Assembly: GCA_027315165.1 (NCBI GenBank)
Contig: DAHUYN010000012.1
Coordinates: forward strand, 1-58,927
Reading direction: 5' to 3'
DNA: 58,927 nt
Origin: Thermoplasmata archaeon
GTDB taxonomy: Archaea; Thermoplasmatota; Thermoplasmata; Lutacidiplasmatales; UBA184
Under the pieces are notes generated by a model that saw only the letters and a list, made by a program, of their open reading frames with translations, had not been told where the DNA came from and searched no databases. Shown here one piece after another: positions 52,482 through 57,993 of the stretch; position 1 is the stretch's first letter, and each line of letters begins with the position of its first letter. A program made the translations under genes and the position numbers.

Positions 52482-52632
52482 GGGGGTAGCTGCACAAGAC
52501 TCGTCCGCCCCGCACTTCAATGAGCCCTGACCTCGCCCCAATGCGGGCAGGTGAGTCGCGACCGCTCGTTTCAAGACGGGTAAGCCGATTCGTCTCGGAT
52601 GCTCGGGCCCTGGCTTGGGACGGACGGATGAT

Positions 52633-54231
52633 ATGACCGAGCGAGTTATCCTCCTCTCTGGAGCAATATCCTCGGGCAAGTCGACCTTAGGGAAATCCCT
52701 CGAAGCCTCGGAGGGTGCGCAGGTCTTCCGAACGAGGGAGGTGCTGCAGCGGAGGTCCGCCCCCGGATCGGAGCATGATCGCAAAGCGCTGCAGGCCATA
52801 GGCGACGGACTGGATCGCGAAACCCATCACCGGTGGGTGCTGGAGGAGTTCAAGGTCTGGCGCGCGAAGCTGGAACATCCGAACGTCGTCGTCGTGGACT
52901 CTGTCCGAACGGTGGACCAGGTCGCTTCCTTCAGAGCGGAGTTCGGCCCGTCGATAACACACGTTCACCTTACGGCTCCGGTCGAACAGTTGGAGGAACG
53001 GTTCAATCACAGAAAGCAGTCGGGGACCAAGATCTACACCTTTGCTGAGGTCCGAGACAACCCAACGGAACAGCAGATCGAGGGCCTCGCGAAGATCGCA
53101 GACCTAGTCGTCAACACTTTCCGATGTACGGAGGCCGACGTCCTCACCCGTGCCAACAGTCACCTTGGATTTAGGCACAGCGCAGGCCGTGGCTACGTCG
53201 ACGTGGTGGTCGGCGGCCAATATGGAAGCGAGGGCAAGGGGCAGATTGTGGACCACCTCTCTAGCGAGTATGATCTCCTCATCCGTGTCGGTGGTCCCAA
53301 CGCCGGCCACTCGGTCTTTCGGGAGCCCGCGCCGTATGTCCACCATCACCTCCCCTCCGGAACCCAATCGACCAATGCTCGACTTCTCATCGGACCTGGA
53401 GCGGTGCTCAGGGTCTCCACCCTGCTGAAGGAGATCGCGGACTGTAAGCTCGCGGACGGGCGGCTGACAATCGACGGGTCGGCCATGATCATCTCTGACG
53501 AGGACATCGAGAAGGAGACTGGCCTCGTGAAGTCGATCGGCTCGACCGGCCAAGGAGTGGGTGCTGCCTCCGCTCGCCGGATCATGGGTCGTGGCGAGGG
53601 CGTTAAGCTCGCAAGAGATGCCCCGGAGCTCAAGTCCTACATCGGCAGCGCCTACGACGTCCTGCACCACACGTTCTCCTCCGGAGGTCGGGCACTATTG
53701 GAGGGGACTCAAGGAACGGGACTGAGTTTGTTCCACGGGCCGTACCCACACGTCACCTCCCGCGACACTACCGTGATGGGTTGCCTGTCCGAGGCCGGAA
53801 TCCCGTCCTCAAGAGTCCGAAAGGTCGTGATGGTCTGTCGAACGTACCCCATCCGCGTCGAGAGCCCGAGCAGCGGTTCCTCGGGACCTCTTCACGAGAT
53901 GACCTACGCTGAGCTCTCGCGCCGTTCTGGCGTTCCCGAGGCCGATCTGCTGGGCGCCGAGAAGACTTCCACGACTCACAAACAACGCCGACTAGGCGAG
54001 TTCGAGTGGGATCTCCTTCAGAGAGCCGCCGGCCTGAACGCCCCGACGGATATCGCGGTGACCTTCGCGGATTACCTCGGGCTTGCCAATCGTCAGGCAA
54101 TCAGGTTCGAGCAGCTTACCGAGGAGACCATCAACTTCATTCAAGAAGTGGAGCGGGTGACTGGCACGCCCGCCTCGCTCATCGCGACTGGGTTCAGTAA
54201 TCGCAGCATAATCGACAGACGGGCATGGTAG
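52633..54231 (+). CDS. P-loop kinase fused to an adenylosuccinate synthetase homologue (PurA/PurZ-like)
   Basis: Residues 1-172 are a nucleotide-kinase-like P-loop domain with Walker A 'GAISSGKST' (10-18) and 'NVVVVDSVRT' as a second strand. Residues 188-532 align along their length with adenylosuccinate synthetase: 'GGQYGSEGKGQIVD', 'GGPNAGHSV' (His226), 'GSTGQGVGAA', 'LLEGTQGTGLSLFHGPYPHV' and the end 'LIATGFSNRSII'. The catalytic Asp of PurA is Ser199, and the guanine-reading KLD of PurA is Phe478-Ala-Asp480. PurA joins aspartate to IMP; PurZ does so with dGMP. The product here is unknown. ATG 52633 is in frame with Walker A. The ART-like gene follows by six bases. Codon use is looser than in core genes. 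Confidence 0.85.
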   Translation: MTERVILLSGAISSGKSTLGKSLEASEGAQVFRTREVLQRRSAPGSEHDRKALQAIGDGLDRETHHRWVLEEFKVWRAKLEHPNVVVVDSVRTVDQVASFRAEFGPSITHVHLTAPVEQLEERFNHRKQSGTKIYTFAEVRDNPTEQQIEGLAKIADLVVNTFRCTEADVLTRANSHLGFRHSAGRGYVDVVVGGQYGSEGKGQIVDHLSSEYDLLIRVGGPNAGHSVFREPAPYVHHHLPSGTQSTNARLLIGPGAVLRVSTLLKEIADCKLADGRLTIDGSAMIISDEDIEKETGLVKSIGSTGQGVGAASARRIMGRGEGVKLARDAPELKSYIGSAYDVLHHTFSSGGRALLEGTQGTGLSLFHGPYPHVTSRDTTVMGCLSEAGIPSSRVRKVVMVCRTYPIRVESPSSGSSGPLHEMTYAELSRRSGVPEADLLGAEKTSTTHKQRRLGEFEWDLLQRAAGLNAPTDIAVTFADYLGLANRQAIRFEQLTEETINFIQEVERVTGTPASLIATGFSNRSIIDRRAW

Positions 54232-54237
54232 TCGCTC

Positions 54238-54870
54238 ATGGAGCCGGAGGAGCTCATCCGACGCTGGCCGACGCTTTACCACATGGCCGAAGCTGGGAGC
54301 TGGCCAAGCATACGACGACACGGACTCCGAAGCACCTCGGCCCTCCTCGACCTCTTCGAGATTGAGCCGGCGCGTCGAATCCGGCTCGAAACGCAGTGGC
54401 GGCGAGAGAGCGAGGAGATCTCTCACCCGACCTACGGGACCGCCGTCATTCGCGATCAAAAGCCGATGCCGGCCGCAGTACTCGAAAGGTTCCTCGAACC
54501 CGGGCTCTCTACCGCAGACTGGTATCGGCTCATCAACGGCAAGACCTTCTTCTGGCCGAACACAACCCCGTTGCTCTGGATGCTCGGAGCGCCTCCTTAT
54601 CGTAGCCGTGCCCACGATGTCCTCGTGGTCGACACCGCTCGGCTGGTCGATCGTCACAGAGAGGGGGTGACTCTTTCAGCCCAGAACTCCGGGAGTACCA
54701 ATAAGGGGTTAAGGAAGGGTCGAGACACGTTCTTGCCCATCGCTGCTTTCCGGGCCCCCTACGTCAATGAAGTGGCGGTCGAATACGGCGTTCCTGATAT
54801 CGAGGAGCTGACCCTCAGAGTCGAACAACGTCAAGGGTCCGATATCCTTGGCACCATCTGGACAGGGTAG
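54238..54870 (+). CDS. ADP-ribosyltransferase-like protein coupled to the PurA fusion
   Basis: This 210-residue protein opens with 'TLYHMAEAGSWPSIRRHGL' (residues 12-30). This resembles the 'lyH.t....l.sI...GL' start of DarT-like and related ADP-ribosyltransferase folds, with His15 in the NAD-binding position. 'LRSTSALLDLF' follows. A late block 'YVNEVAVEYGVPDIEEL' (175-191) has Glu178 where such enzymes place the catalytic Glu. I recall similar proteins only as a family of unknown function, so activity is inferred. It starts six bases after the fusion gene and must be co-transcribed. There is no signal peptide. Its 3' side is followed by 85 bp and then the IS. Confidence 0.65.
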   Translation: MEPEELIRRWPTLYHMAEAGSWPSIRRHGLRSTSALLDLFEIEPARRIRLETQWRRESEEISHPTYGTAVIRDQKPMPAAVLERFLEPGLSTADWYRLINGKTFFWPNTTPLLWMLGAPPYRSRAHDVLVVDTARLVDRHREGVTLSAQNSGSTNKGLRKGRDTFLPIAAFRAPYVNEVAVEYGVPDIEELTLRVEQRQGSDILGTIWTG

Positions 54871-54955: not shown

Positions 54956-54960
54956 GACTC
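54956..54960 (+). repeat. Target-site duplication, left copy (GACTC)
   Basis: GACTC immediately precedes the left inverted repeat of the IS and recurs at 56896-56900 immediately after the right one. Confidence 0.85.
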
Positions 54961-56895
54961 CAGTACCGGGGTTTACAAGTTAGCCCTCTCTTGACGTAGA
55001 GTCGTTCCCGATCCCCTCTCCCAACCTCTTCTCGAGGATTCGCCCTTGCCGCTCGACGTATTATCTGCCTACAGGATGCATCCGCCGATAGGGATATGTG
55101 TCTGTAGTATCTGTCGTTGCTCGTGGTCTCCCTCGTCCGTCGCCGGGTCCGCCGTCAGCGCTACTGGTACCTGGTCGAGTCCGGCCGCGTTCGAGGTCGC
55201 CCTCGTATTGTCTGGCAGAAGTACCTCGGCACCCCGCAACGCATCCGGGAACTTCTGGAGAAGGCAGAGGCCGGAGGCGGCCCGCTGGAGGTCGATGTCG
55301 CCGATTTCGGCCCGGCTCCCCTCCTGGCCCTCGCCCGTGAGCTCGGGTTGGTCGAGACCATCGACCGTCTCCTCCCGAAGCGGGATCAGGGCTACTCCGT
55401 CGGCGAGCACCTGCTCGTCGCCGTCCTCAATAGATGCCTCGCCCCCTGCAGCAAGCTCCAGATTCGCCCTTGGTTCGACGGGACGATCCTCCCTCGCCTC
55501 CTCGGCAAGAAGGAGGGTCTGTCGAGCCAGGACTACTGGAACCACCTCGACCGCCTCGATGACGGGCTCCTCGAAGCAATCCAGTTCGCCATCTCCCGCA
55601 AGGCGGTCGAGCGGTTCGGCCTCGCGCTCGACTTCCTCTACTACGATCCGACCAACTTCTCGACCCACATCCAAGACCACGACGACCGGGGCAACGAGAT
55701 CCCCGAGCGGGGTCCGGCGAAGGACCGACGGACCGACCTGCGGCTCATCGGGCTGGCGCTGCTCGCGAGCCGGGACCATGGGGTGCCGCTGTTGCACCGC
55801 ACCTTCCCGGGCAACGAGAGCGAGTATCCGCTCTTCCGGGAGGAGGTGCCCCGCATCCGACGGTGGGTCGAGGCGCTCGGGAAGCACTCTTCCGAGATCA
55901 CCCTCGTCTTCGACAAGGGCAACAACAGCGCCCCGGGGCTCGACCTCGTCGAGGAGGCGGGGTTCCACTACGTGGGCTCCCTACGACCGAGCCTGAATCG
56001 GGACCTGATGACGCTCTCGCTCGCGAAGTTCTGTCCGTGCTACGGCGAGGGCGAGACCGCCACCCGGACGTATCGAGAGAATCGCTCGGCGTACGGTCGG
56101 GAGGTCACGGTGGTGGTGACCTTCAATCGGCAGTTGCAGGAGCATCTGGAAGCCACGCTTGAGGACATCCTCGTCACGGCGGAGGAGCGCCTTCGGGCGT
56201 GGGCCACCGCACTCGCCGAGGACCAGGCGAAGGGTCGCTCCCGGGGCCGTCGAACGCTCGCGACCTGCAAGAACCGGGTCCGCAAGCTCCTCGGGCACGC
56301 GGAGCCGCTATTCCGATGGTCGGTGACCCGAACGGGTCGGGGGCCGTTCGAGGTAAGCTGGCAACGGAACGCGGCGGCGATCCGTCGACGCGCGCTCGGC
56401 TTCGGTCGGACGGTGATCTACACGGATCGGCATGAATGGGGGGACGAAGAGATCGTCCGGGCGTATCGGTCGAAGGCGGTCATCGAGGAGGAGTTCCGTC
56501 GGCTGAAGGACACTTCGTATCTCTCGGACACGCCGCAGTACCACTGGACGGACTCGAAGATCAAGGGGCACCAGCTGATCTGCTTTCTCGCGCTGCAACT
56601 GATGACGATACTCCAGCGGCAGCTCCACCGGACGGGGCATGCCGTCACGATCGACGAGCTGGCGCACGCGCTCCAGCGGTGGTTCCAGGTGGTGCAACTC
56701 TACCCGGGAGGGAAGACCGAGCGACGCCTCCGCCCGATGAGCCCGGTGCAGGAGACCCTGCACAAGGAACTCCACCTCGAGGTCTACGCCTGAGCGCGGG
56801 GCGGCAAGAAGACTGTAGGTAATACACTCTGGACCCGCGATCCTCCGTCAGAGAAAGGCTGAACCTTGGATCCTATCTTGTAAACCCCGGTACTG
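54961..56895 (+). mobile_element. Complete insertion sequence, IS1634-like (IS4 superfamily)
   Basis: The 1,935-bp element is bounded by perfect 19-bp inverted repeats: CAGTACCGGGGTTTACAAG at 54961-54979 and its complement at 56877-56895. A few more matched bases lie inside, and 5-bp direct repeats GACTC flank it. It carries one transposase gene with all three catalytic acidic residues, so it looks intact and recently inserted. It landed between two convergent genes and broke neither. About 140 bp of non-coding sequence lies before the transposase start and 100 bp after its stop. Confidence 0.92.
55117..56793 (+). CDS. IS1634-family DDE transposase
   Basis: The 558-residue transposase has Asp in 'LDFLYYDPTNFST', Asp in 'ITLVFDKGNNSAPGL', and the Glu of the YREK-like block in 'RSKAVIEEEFRRLKDTSYLS'. 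This gives the DDE triad of the IS4/IS1634 group. The N-terminal 'YWYLVESGRVRGRPRIVWQ' is typical of this family. TTG 55117 is the outermost in-frame start, and GTG two codons later is equally possible. The gene is more GC-rich than its island neighbours, so the IS probably arrived separately. Confidence 0.93.
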   Translation: MLVVSLVRRRVRRQRYWYLVESGRVRGRPRIVWQKYLGTPQRIRELLEKAEAGGGPLEVDVADFGPAPLLALARELGLVETIDRLLPKRDQGYSVGEHLLVAVLNRCLAPCSKLQIRPWFDGTILPRLLGKKEGLSSQDYWNHLDRLDDGLLEAIQFAISRKAVERFGLALDFLYYDPTNFSTHIQDHDDRGNEIPERGPAKDRRTDLRLIGLALLASRDHGVPLLHRTFPGNESEYPLFREEVPRIRRWVEALGKHSSEITLVFDKGNNSAPGLDLVEEAGFHYVGSLRPSLNRDLMTLSLAKFCPCYGEGETATRTYRENRSAYGREVTVVVTFNRQLQEHLEATLEDILVTAEERLRAWATALAEDQAKGRSRGRRTLATCKNRVRKLLGHAEPLFRWSVTRTGRGPFEVSWQRNAAAIRRRALGFGRTVIYTDRHEWGDEEIVRAYRSKAVIEEEFRRLKDTSYLSDTPQYHWTDSKIKGHQLICFLALQLMTILQRQLHRTGHAVTIDELAHALQRWFQVVQLYPGGKTERRLRPMSPVQETLHKELHLEVYA

Positions 56896-56900
56896 GACTC
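56896..56900 (+). repeat. Target-site duplication, right copy (GACTC)
   Basis: GACTC directly follows the right inverted repeat, identical to the left copy at 54956-54960. Confidence 0.85.
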
Positions 56901-56915
56901 ACAGTGCGAACTGCC

Positions 56916-57683
56916 CTACGATGCCGGGGCGACCCTCAGCCGGGCCACTCCCGTGGCCGCCTCGGCCAAGGGGGATGGGTGGTCGATCTGCACCTTCACG
57001 AGTCTTCCCCATTTCTCCGCGACCAAGGCTGCGGAACGCAAGAGCTGGTCTTCGTGGCGGGCTTGCGGGAGGAGGATGAACGCCACATGGGAGGTGCTGA
57101 ACGAGATGACCCTTCGCAGGTCGGACAGATCTGAGAACTGCTCAGCCCACGCCGTAAGAAACGGCCCGCGAGACCTTCTTGGATAGTGCTGGTAGACGAG
57201 GACTGAATGTCCTTGACGGTAGGCTCGACCTACTTCGTCCGGATAGACGTACTTCGATGAATTCCGGCTCCCGCGGGGCGCCGAGGCAACCCCCAGACCG
57301 TTATCCGGGTCGAAGAAGAGGAGGTCGGAGCCCTGGGAGAAGCGAAGGAGCTTGGCGAAGTACGCGTCGCGCTCGTCACACGCGAATGGGAGGAGATCTG
57401 AGAAGAATCTGCAGTTCGAAAGCACTCCAGATCTCTCGATGAAGTCAAGCCGACGTTGGCCAACGTCGACTACGGACGTCCTTAGGAGGTGAAAGATCGC
57501 CGGGTCGTGGCACTCCCACTCCTCAGGTTTCTCTAGGTAACCGATCTTGCCGCCGTCGGACCGGCCGTCGTCCTCCGTCAGCGCCCAGCAGATGGTCGTC
57601 GCTAGCTTCCCGTAGCCTCCGAGCAGGCGAATGAAACTGTACTTCTTGTAGTCGTTTACGTCGCCGAAGTATTGATTCTTCAC
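56916..57683 (-). CDS. Conserved protein of the 'MKNQYFGDVNDY' family, function unknown
   Basis: This 255-residue protein starts 'VKNQYFGDVNDYKKYSFIRL' at GTG 57683, matching the opening of a widespread family whose members begin MKNQYFGD. The motifs 'FFDPDNG' (123-129), 'SSKYVYPDEV' (142-151) and 'YQHYPR' (164-169) are retained. The acidic FDPDNG block suggests a catalytic or metal site, and I recall such genes near defence or restriction loci, but the biochemistry is not established. Open frame upstream of 57683 is not family-like. Its start overlaps the TGA of the small ORF at 57680-57862. Confidence 0.8.
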   Translation of the reverse strand: MKNQYFGDVNDYKKYSFIRLLGGYGKLATTICWALTEDDGRSDGGKIGYLEKPEEWECHDPAIFHLLRTSVVDVGQRRLDFIERSGVLSNCRFFSDLLPFACDERDAYFAKLLRFSQGSDLLFFDPDNGLGVASAPRGSRNSSKYVYPDEVGRAYRQGHSVLVYQHYPRRSRGPFLTAWAEQFSDLSDLRRVISFSTSHVAFILLPQARHEDQLLRSAALVAEKWGRLVKVQIDHPSPLAEAATGVARLRVAPAS

Positions 57684-57862
57684 GGTGCACTCCAAAAGGG
57701 GAATCGGGTCAGAACTCTCTCGGACCGCCGCGGGTCCCAGAACTGGCCTGCGCGCCGAGTGCCCTCCTCCGTGTAGATGCCGCTCCGGATCAGATTCACC
57801 AAGACGGCCATTCTTGACTGGAGGCCGCTCGGCTGAACGATCGCCTTCAATCGGCCGGTCAC
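57680..57862 (-). CDS. Small ORF coupled to the MKNQYFGD-family gene
   Basis: From GTG 57862 this gives 60 residues including 'RMAVLVNLIRSGIYTEEG' and 'FWDPRRSERVLTRF', a possible short helical or winged domain. Support comes from a CTAAAATC TATA-like box at 57883-57890 placed for a leaderless start, and from the GTGA overlap (57683-57680) with the next gene. I do not recognise a family. Further upstream in the same frame, ATG 57991 overlaps another TATA-like run and is less likely. Confidence 0.45.
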   Translation of the reverse strand: MTGRLKAIVQPSGLQSRMAVLVNLIRSGIYTEEGTRRAGQFWDPRRSERVLTRFPFWSAP

Positions 57863-57993
57863 ACTGCGATTCCGGCCGGTGAGAGATTTTAGTGTATGTC
57901 TCGTTCGGCGGCAACACCTTTGGAACGCCCAGTCTCCTCGACAGGAGCTTGGGCCCGGAGACCATTCTATGGCACCTCCGACGTATAACATGG

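Follow-up and report, generated by a model that had tools for sequence, protein, structure and literature searches.

A kinase–PurZ-like fusion enzyme in a widely spread accessory gene cassette of archaea and bacteria

We analysed a 58,927-nucleotide (nt) stretch of DNA, hereafter the window, from a Thermoplasmata archaeon (lineage UBA184; GenBank assembly GCA_027315165.1, contig DAHUYN010000012.1), centering on a gene that encodes a P-loop nucleotide kinase fused to a homolog of adenylosuccinate synthetase (PurA). The fusion enzyme is PurZ-like, and the cassette to which it belongs, together with a DUF7002 protein, is real, widely spread and accessory. PurZ-type enzymes are best known from phages with 2-aminoadenine (Z) genomes, to which they are key; here, a kinase-fused type is found in bacteria and archaea. 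The gene and its parts are as follows, in window positions.

52633..54231, forward strand: kinase–PurZ-like fusion gene, a single open frame of 532 amino acids (aa) with an ATG start and its stop at 54231; an alternative TTG start at 52615 would add 6 aa
52633..53157, forward strand: N-terminal P-loop nucleotide kinase domain, residues 1-175 (Pfam AAA_18/AAA_33)
52660..52683, forward strand: Walker A motif GAISSGKS, residues 10-17 (G10-S17)
53194..54228, forward strand: PurA/PurZ-like domain, residues 188-532 (PF00709)
53224..53241, forward strand: nucleotide loop GSEGKG, residues 198-203, in which Ser199 replaces the PurA catalytic Asp13
53308..53310, forward strand: His226, counterpart of the PurA catalytic His41, present in 95/95 fusions

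Each half has its own Pfam matches, residues 1-185 to AAA_18 (43 bits) and AAA_33 (31 bits), and the remainder from residue 186 to the adenylosuccinate synthetase family PF00709 (175.7 bits). Together with the open frame, this bears out the 532-residue kinase and PurA-like protein with a Walker A motif that a sequence-only reading of the window had described. The nearest solved structure by sequence is an archaeal PurA (5k7x), which covers residues 6-345 of the 347-residue PurA-like segment.

The fusion is widespread and accessory

A genomic-context survey of kinase–PurA fusions, which the sequence-only reading had proposed, yielded 97 loci with a recurrent DUF7002 partner. We searched plasmids, genomes of the window's own phylum (Thermoplasmatota), a genome collection and viral contigs, and required matches to both domain profiles. 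Of these, 79 are genome loci, 8 each come from plasmids and viral contigs, and the last two are the window and a relative from its genus. Because only the best 80 of 414 candidate stretches were retained from the genome scan, the counts describe the closest relatives. The loci were not deduplicated (L005 and L052 are apparently one locus, and some viral contigs may duplicate genome loci), and contig ends cut many of them, so that absences are to be read as lower bounds. Both domains share one frame at 96 of the 97 loci, which rules out an assembly artefact, named in the earlier reading as a possible source of the fusion. At L100 the fusion is split into two frames, and at L179 it is cut by a contig end.

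By record title, the 79 genome loci belong to 15 phyla, with 4 archaeal loci (3 phyla) and 75 bacterial loci (12 phyla). This occurrence is broad yet patchy and includes plasmids, which is the pattern expected from horizontal transfer. DUF7002 itself was found in the window's genome only among a sample of 194 genomes of its phylum; the same-genus relative, which also carries it, lies outside that sample. Among 199 Acidobacteriota genomes, it rose above the cut-off only in the already known carrier, with one further sub-threshold match. No full-length fusion was found in the phage collection, where none of the 218 matching records reached 80% query coverage.

On contig C12, the window's genome encodes a separate full-length PurA (458 bits). 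It also has a single full PurB (428 bits), and a full PurA was likewise present in all 12 other fusion-carrying genomes checked. The fusion falls short of both housekeeping PurA models, TIGR00184 (186 bits, cut-off 395.6) and NF003295 (266.9 bits, cut-off 368). A housekeeping PurA is rejected by the separate PurA in 13/13 genomes examined and the loss of Asp13 in 95/95 fusions, and the fusion is almost certainly an accessory enzyme.

The synthetase half has PurZ-type features

The nucleotide loop reads GSEGKG, with Ser in place of PurA Asp13, in 95/95 fusions with a readable loop (the loop of L130, among 96 fusion proteins, is cut). Lys16, Asn38, His41, Thr129, Gln224, Thr239 and Arg305 (E. 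coli numbering), which have functional roles in PurA, are retained in all 95. The Arg143 column of the fusion alignment is poorly aligned and uninformative. A 2026 study finds Asp13 conserved at 99% among PurA-group sequences, and Ser in its place in all 147 PurZ sequences from phages; the Ser (or Gly) at this position by which that study recognizes PurZ is what the fusion has (PMC12884076).

Further support came from the sequence that follows a conserved Val (Val273 in E. coli numbering). There, an SG motif is found in 95/95 fusions, 71/71 viral solo proteins and 5/5 PurZ-type references, against 9/27 long PurA and 0/2 short PurA; with a stricter SG pattern, the numbers become 91 fusions, 70 viral solo proteins, 5 references, 8 long PurA and 0 short PurA. 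In PMC8342488, PurZ is described as having an insertion right after the conserved Val, which draws the Val nearer to the sugar and is tied to sugar selectivity. A tree of 38 rows united the fusions in one clade (support 100/100) and placed them on one side of a branch with PurZ and PurZ0-like proteins (100/99), and a quick tree of 74 rows agrees. The PHROG family of 2-aminooxy adenylosuccinate synthetase also matches the fusion (215.6 bits). The sequence-only reading had favored nucleotide modification over routine AMP synthesis, and had given as the contrary case a genome with no other PurA and a fusion grouping inside housekeeping PurA. A second PurA exists and the best tree places the fusion outside; with the PurZ-type active site and the extra Z-pathway genes of relatives (see below), these results support nucleotide modification.

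Several observations pull in the other direction. An approximately unbiased (AU) test on the 38-row tree did not reject the alternative in which the fusions group with long PurA (p 0.133). The PurZ model NF038379 scores 202.7 bits, under its cut-off of 300, and is outscored by the archaeal PurA model NF003295, itself also under cut-off. The equivalent of D333 is Asp in 95/95 fusions, like PurA and unlike phiVC8 PurZ. The energy-donor site is a mix of PurA and PurZ, with Phe at 331 in 94/95 fusions and Asp at 333, and the retained Asp implies that the energy donor may differ. Finally, the stretch from Val273 to Thr301 has a median length of 41 in the fusions, compared with 29 in PurA, 28 in viral solo proteins and 30 in PurZ-type references (other groups' medians, 27-30). 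We had considered the long loop after Val273 as a PurZ trait and dropped it, because the fusions exceed PurA, viral solo proteins and PurZ-type references alike; the length is peculiar to the fusions, and only the SG motif is common to PurZ. Weighing these points, we consider that the synthetase half probably performs PurZ-type chemistry on a guanine deoxynucleotide.

The kinase half

In 50 aligned fusions, G15 and K16 of the kinase half are invariant and D89 and R92 nearly so. The half shows weak similarity to the phage deoxynucleoside monophosphate (dNMP) kinases of PHROG 139 (E 2e-5), and weak matches to two PADLOC models, VakA (E about 7e-8) and dCTPase, the kinase-like part of the antiphage dCTP deaminase (E 6.8e-8). 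From its families, the kinase half would fairly likely act on the same nucleotide as the PurZ half. Five loci (L091, L114, L115, L122 and L126) encode the kinase a second time, as a separate protein next to the fusion, suggesting that kinase dose or a division of roles matters.

DUF7002 follows the fusion in most loci

The gene that directly follows the fusion in the window encodes a DUF7002 protein.

54238..54870, forward strand: DUF7002 protein of 210 aa, possible partner with an ADP-ribosyltransferase (ART) fold (PF22531, 195 bits), starting 6 nt past the fusion stop

In 89 of the 97 loci, the fusion is followed on its own strand by a DUF7002 gene, in 86 of them within 250 nt. The gene is present in 76/79 genome loci and 86/89 cellular loci. 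Of the 79 loci where both starts could be set, 75 have it overlapping the fusion or beginning no more than 30 nt after it. An alignment of 65 DUF7002 sequences shows 11 invariant positions, including H15, R55, R72, Y121 and E178. In a Nitrososphaerota genome (L050, 7001-12375), one DUF7002 gene stands between two kinase–PurZ fusions on opposite strands.

The sequence-only reading had called this neighbor ADP-ribosyltransferase-like. The neighbor exists and belongs to DUF7002 (PF22531), its sole Pfam match in the window; its transferase nature is only weakly backed by profile scores. Profile alignment with hhalign gave a score of 30.1 against DarT (probability 21%, 54 columns), compared to a maximum of 20.1 in 40 column shuffles, with 13-17 for six unrelated profiles against DUF7002 and 20.6 for DarT against KptA as controls. 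The DarT frames for the profile were picked by a start motif. Less favorable to a transferase are the comparison with KptA, which at 27.9 (probability 8%, 135 columns) barely exceeds its shuffle maximum of 26.0, and the score of 21.1 reached by an unrelated pair, DarT and the PurA-like domain. A PDB profile search with DUF7002 returned nothing significant (best 5cd6, E 0.27; DarT1 8baq, E 0.62), and Pfam DarT (PF14487) does not match the window's protein. DUF7002 may be a remote DarT-like ADP-ribosyltransferase.

A macro-M78 protein often stands upstream

A protein that combines an M78 (IrrE-type) peptidase and a macro domain is encoded upstream of the fusion in 66/97 loci (63/79 genome loci). 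M78 was matched in all 42 members scanned and Pfam Macro in 9 of them. A profile of the macro half matches structures that include 2afc/2fg1 (BT1257), 5e3b, ALC1, TARG1, SCO6735-like ones and DarG (5m31). Twenty-eight loci are without macro-M78, including the window, L044 and the Hyphomicrobiales loci. In Sorangium cellulosum (L083, 5895-6902), an EAD1-trypsin-like protein lies directly upstream of the fusion where macro-M78 usually stands, so another protease may substitute for it there.

Subsets of loci carry Z-pathway genes

A MazG-like gene neighbors the fusion in 10 loci, all from Actinomycetota (10 of 12 loci in that phylum), and the two tested match Pfam PRA-PH. Four of these loci (L102, L105, L107 and L117) also have a PurB-type lyase gene; judged by its position, this is an additional purB in 4/4 genomes. 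Nine Hyphomicrobiales loci, 8 on plasmids and one in Mesorhizobium (L119), have an HD gene whose product is dNMP-phosphatase-like in the two tested. DatZ was considered as an identity for this gene and dropped, since the one product tested prefers dNMP phosphatases (6.5e-63 vs 3.1e-7). Three phage contigs (L124, L125 and L129) have the fusion and NDT-like genes, without DUF7002, and L125 also encodes a DNA polymerase A.

These subsets mirror the gene sets of phage S-2L and of the PurZ0 phages in their MazG-like, HD and NDT-like genes. S-2L carries DatZ, MazZ and PurZ, with host enzymes completing the path (PMC8342488), and PurZ0 phages carry DutZ and DmtZ (PMC12884076). In E. coli, the phage Z-cluster is reported to be toxic and to place Z in the DNA of the cell (PMC8342488).

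Some other arrangements were observed. L034-L041 and L119, which have the HD gene and no macro-M78, each also encode a member of one family of 450-500 aa proteins; the three members scanned have no Pfam match. On a Sinorhizobium medicae plasmid (L042, CP140912.1, 5266-8027), an unfused PurZ-like protein (GSEGKG) is encoded next to an HD dNMP-phosphatase-like gene and a dCTP-deaminase-like protein; this may be a related cassette that lacks kinase and DUF7002. A Rhizobium leguminosarum plasmid (L043, NZ_CP121639.1) has a PurA-like and PurB pair with FolE, QueE, QueC, IMP dehydrogenase and a nitrile hydratase subunit, which looks like a 7-deazapurine nucleoside cluster of the sangivamycin type.

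Defense genes near the cassette in relatives

In the genomes of 12 relatives, PADLOC models (E 1e-10) matched 56 families among 122 cassette neighbors and 9 among 122 control genes around purA, in a count where several models can match one protein and genes were chosen by a simple script rather than a gene caller. All 122 case genes were used, and 122 of 130 control genes, excluding the final six genes of L261 and a single gene from each of L258 and L259. The matches listed include Pycsar cyclase, PycTM, CapP and PD-T4-6. By annotation, the plasmid loci adjoin SIR2, AbiEi/AbiEii, AbiJ-type and UvrD/AAA genes. These surroundings are suggestive of defense, not proof of it. From gene content and context, the cassette likely has a defense role, probably antiviral rather than part of ordinary metabolism.

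Proposed pathway and alternatives

We see an even chance that this is a mobile, defense-type cassette that would make a 2-aminoadenine-type deoxynucleotide and couple it to ADP-ribosylation. In such a pathway, dGTP would be converted to dGMP by the MazG-like enzyme or by the host. The PurZ half would most likely join aspartate to dGMP, giving dSMP (N6-succino-2-amino-dAMP), which adenylosuccinate lyase PurB, the host's or the second copy of some loci, would convert to dZMP (2-amino-dAMP). The kinase half would then phosphorylate dZMP to dZDP, on the way to dZTP. DUF7002, as an ART-like enzyme, would use NAD+ to ADP-ribosylate either the Z nucleotide or DNA with Z in it, and in loci that have macro-M78, this protein would remove or sense the ADP-ribose. 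Every chemical step is here predicted from the enzyme families, upon the observed domain make-up, active-site residues, operon conservation and extra PurB and MazG-like genes of some loci. That the coupling to ADP-ribosylation holds in full is somewhat unlikely. A little more doubtful again is a broader proposal, that cells of many phyla own an immune version of the phage Z-DNA pathway, in which infection would lead to Z deoxynucleotides, DUF7002 would ADP-ribosylate the Z nucleotide or phage DNA marked with Z, and macro-M78 would read or clear this modification.

The window itself fits this proposal incompletely. Its locus is without a MazG-like gene or second PurB, so that the pathway there would depend on the host. 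It is also without macro-M78, for which no match was found in its own assembly (94% complete; the search had no positive control). The neighbors upstream of the fusion, at 48-52 kb, look metabolic. Two of ten plasmids with DUF7002 (Caballeronia and Streptomyces) show neither fusion domain within 6 kb; the other eight have the fusion.

The cassette could alternatively defend by nucleotide depletion. The MazG-like, kinase–PurZ and HD enzymes would then drain dGTP, and perhaps other deoxynucleoside triphosphates, blocking phage replication, and the succinylated nucleotide would be a dead end with no signaling or Z-DNA role. The resemblance of the kinase half to the kinase-like half of the antiphage dCTP deaminase and the MazG-like and dNMP-phosphatase-like enzymes that adjoin the fusion in subsets are in keeping with this. 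However, the second PurB in four loci would pass the product onward, a diphosphate-making kinase would be odd in such a scheme, and the frequent DUF7002 partner would be left unexplained; we regard depletion as unlikely.

More unlikely still is a DarTG-like toxin–antitoxin system with DUF7002 as the toxin, a macro domain that clears its ADP-ribose mark, and the kinase–PurZ protein mainly as a regulator that senses nucleotides and has little or no flux through catalysis. The macro profile does match DarG (5m31) as well as ALC1 and TARG1, the DUF7002 profile beats all 40 shuffles in its comparison with DarT, and the M78 (IrrE-type) domain is present in every macro protein scanned. Yet the supposed antitoxin is absent from the window, L044 and the Hyphomicrobiales loci, the catalytic residues of both synthetase and kinase are retained, and the additional PurB and MazG-like genes suggest that flux is real. 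A metabolic or salvage enzyme, in which a second adenylosuccinate synthetase with an attached salvage kinase would supply AMP or dAMP, has in its favor the PF00709 match and an archaeal PurA as closest solved structure, but is highly improbable given the separate PurA in all 13 genomes examined, the loss of Asp13 throughout, the patchy spread across phyla and the defense-type surroundings in 12 relatives.

If the broader proposal is true, the cassette would be an immune system based on a modified DNA building block. The cassette makes testable whether cells produce and use Z nucleotides, whether it shares an origin with the phage pathway, and what DUF7002 does.

Downstream neighbors in the window

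Two further features lie downstream of the DUF7002 gene.

54956..56900, forward strand: insertion sequence (IS) that separates the DUF7002 gene from the conserved gene below, with its transposase at 55117-56793 (DDE_Tnp_1)
56916..57965, reverse strand: conserved gene (VKNQYFGDVNDYKKY..., FFDPDNG motif), no Pfam match

The IS seen in the sequence-only reading is confirmed by its DDE transposase and by inverted repeats of 28 nt (93%) at 54956-54983 and 56873-56900. It looks like a later insertion, because in L044 the DUF7002 gene and the conserved downstream gene are 26 nt apart. The VKNQYFGDVNDYKKY family occurs downstream of the pair in 10/97 loci (the window, L005, L044-L049, L052 and L054), and the eight of these that have a record title are archaeal or from Chloroflexota. 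An HNH nuclease, also reported nearby, was not recovered, as no HNH family match was found among the open reading frames scanned, a subset of those between 44.4 and 58.9 kb.

Comparison with known systems

Among open-licence PMC papers, including PMC9503650 and with bioRxiv preprints outside the scope, we found no account of a kinase–PurA fusion, of DUF7002 or of the whole cassette. The closest relation is to phage PurZ and PurZ0, with which the fusion has in common the PurA-fold family, Ser for Asp13, the SG motif after Val and the grouping in the best trees, where the AU test does not reject long PurA instead, and subsets of its loci the MazG-like, HD phosphohydrolase and NDT-like neighbors. 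In contrast to these phage enzymes, the fusion has a kinase, resides mostly in cellular genomes and plasmids, is partnered by DUF7002 and often by a macro-protease, has Asp at the D333 position and scores under the PurZ cut-off. Just four of the sequences that the 2026 study assigns to PurZ in its sample are archaeal (PMC12884076).

The archaeal short-form PurA (NF003295/5k7x) resembles the PurA-like half in length, in overall sequence and in its score of 267 bits. It differs in that the fusion has Ser for Asp13, a score below cut-off, a longer loop after Val273, a fused kinase and the status of an accessory gene. The antiphage dCTP deaminase consists of an N-terminal kinase-like domain and a nucleotide-converting domain. 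The fusion is similar in joining a kinase-like domain of weakly similar sequence to a nucleotide-converting enzyme, but its converting domain is a synthetase and not a deaminase, and the deaminase model NF041025 gives it 14.1 bits against a cut-off of 400. Finally, the cassette of most relatives resembles DarTG by combining an ART-like gene with a macro domain of the TARG1/DarG type. Unlike in DarTG, this domain is joined to an M78 peptidase and is missing from the window, the kinase–PurZ gene lies in between, and DUF7002 is not matched by Pfam DarT.

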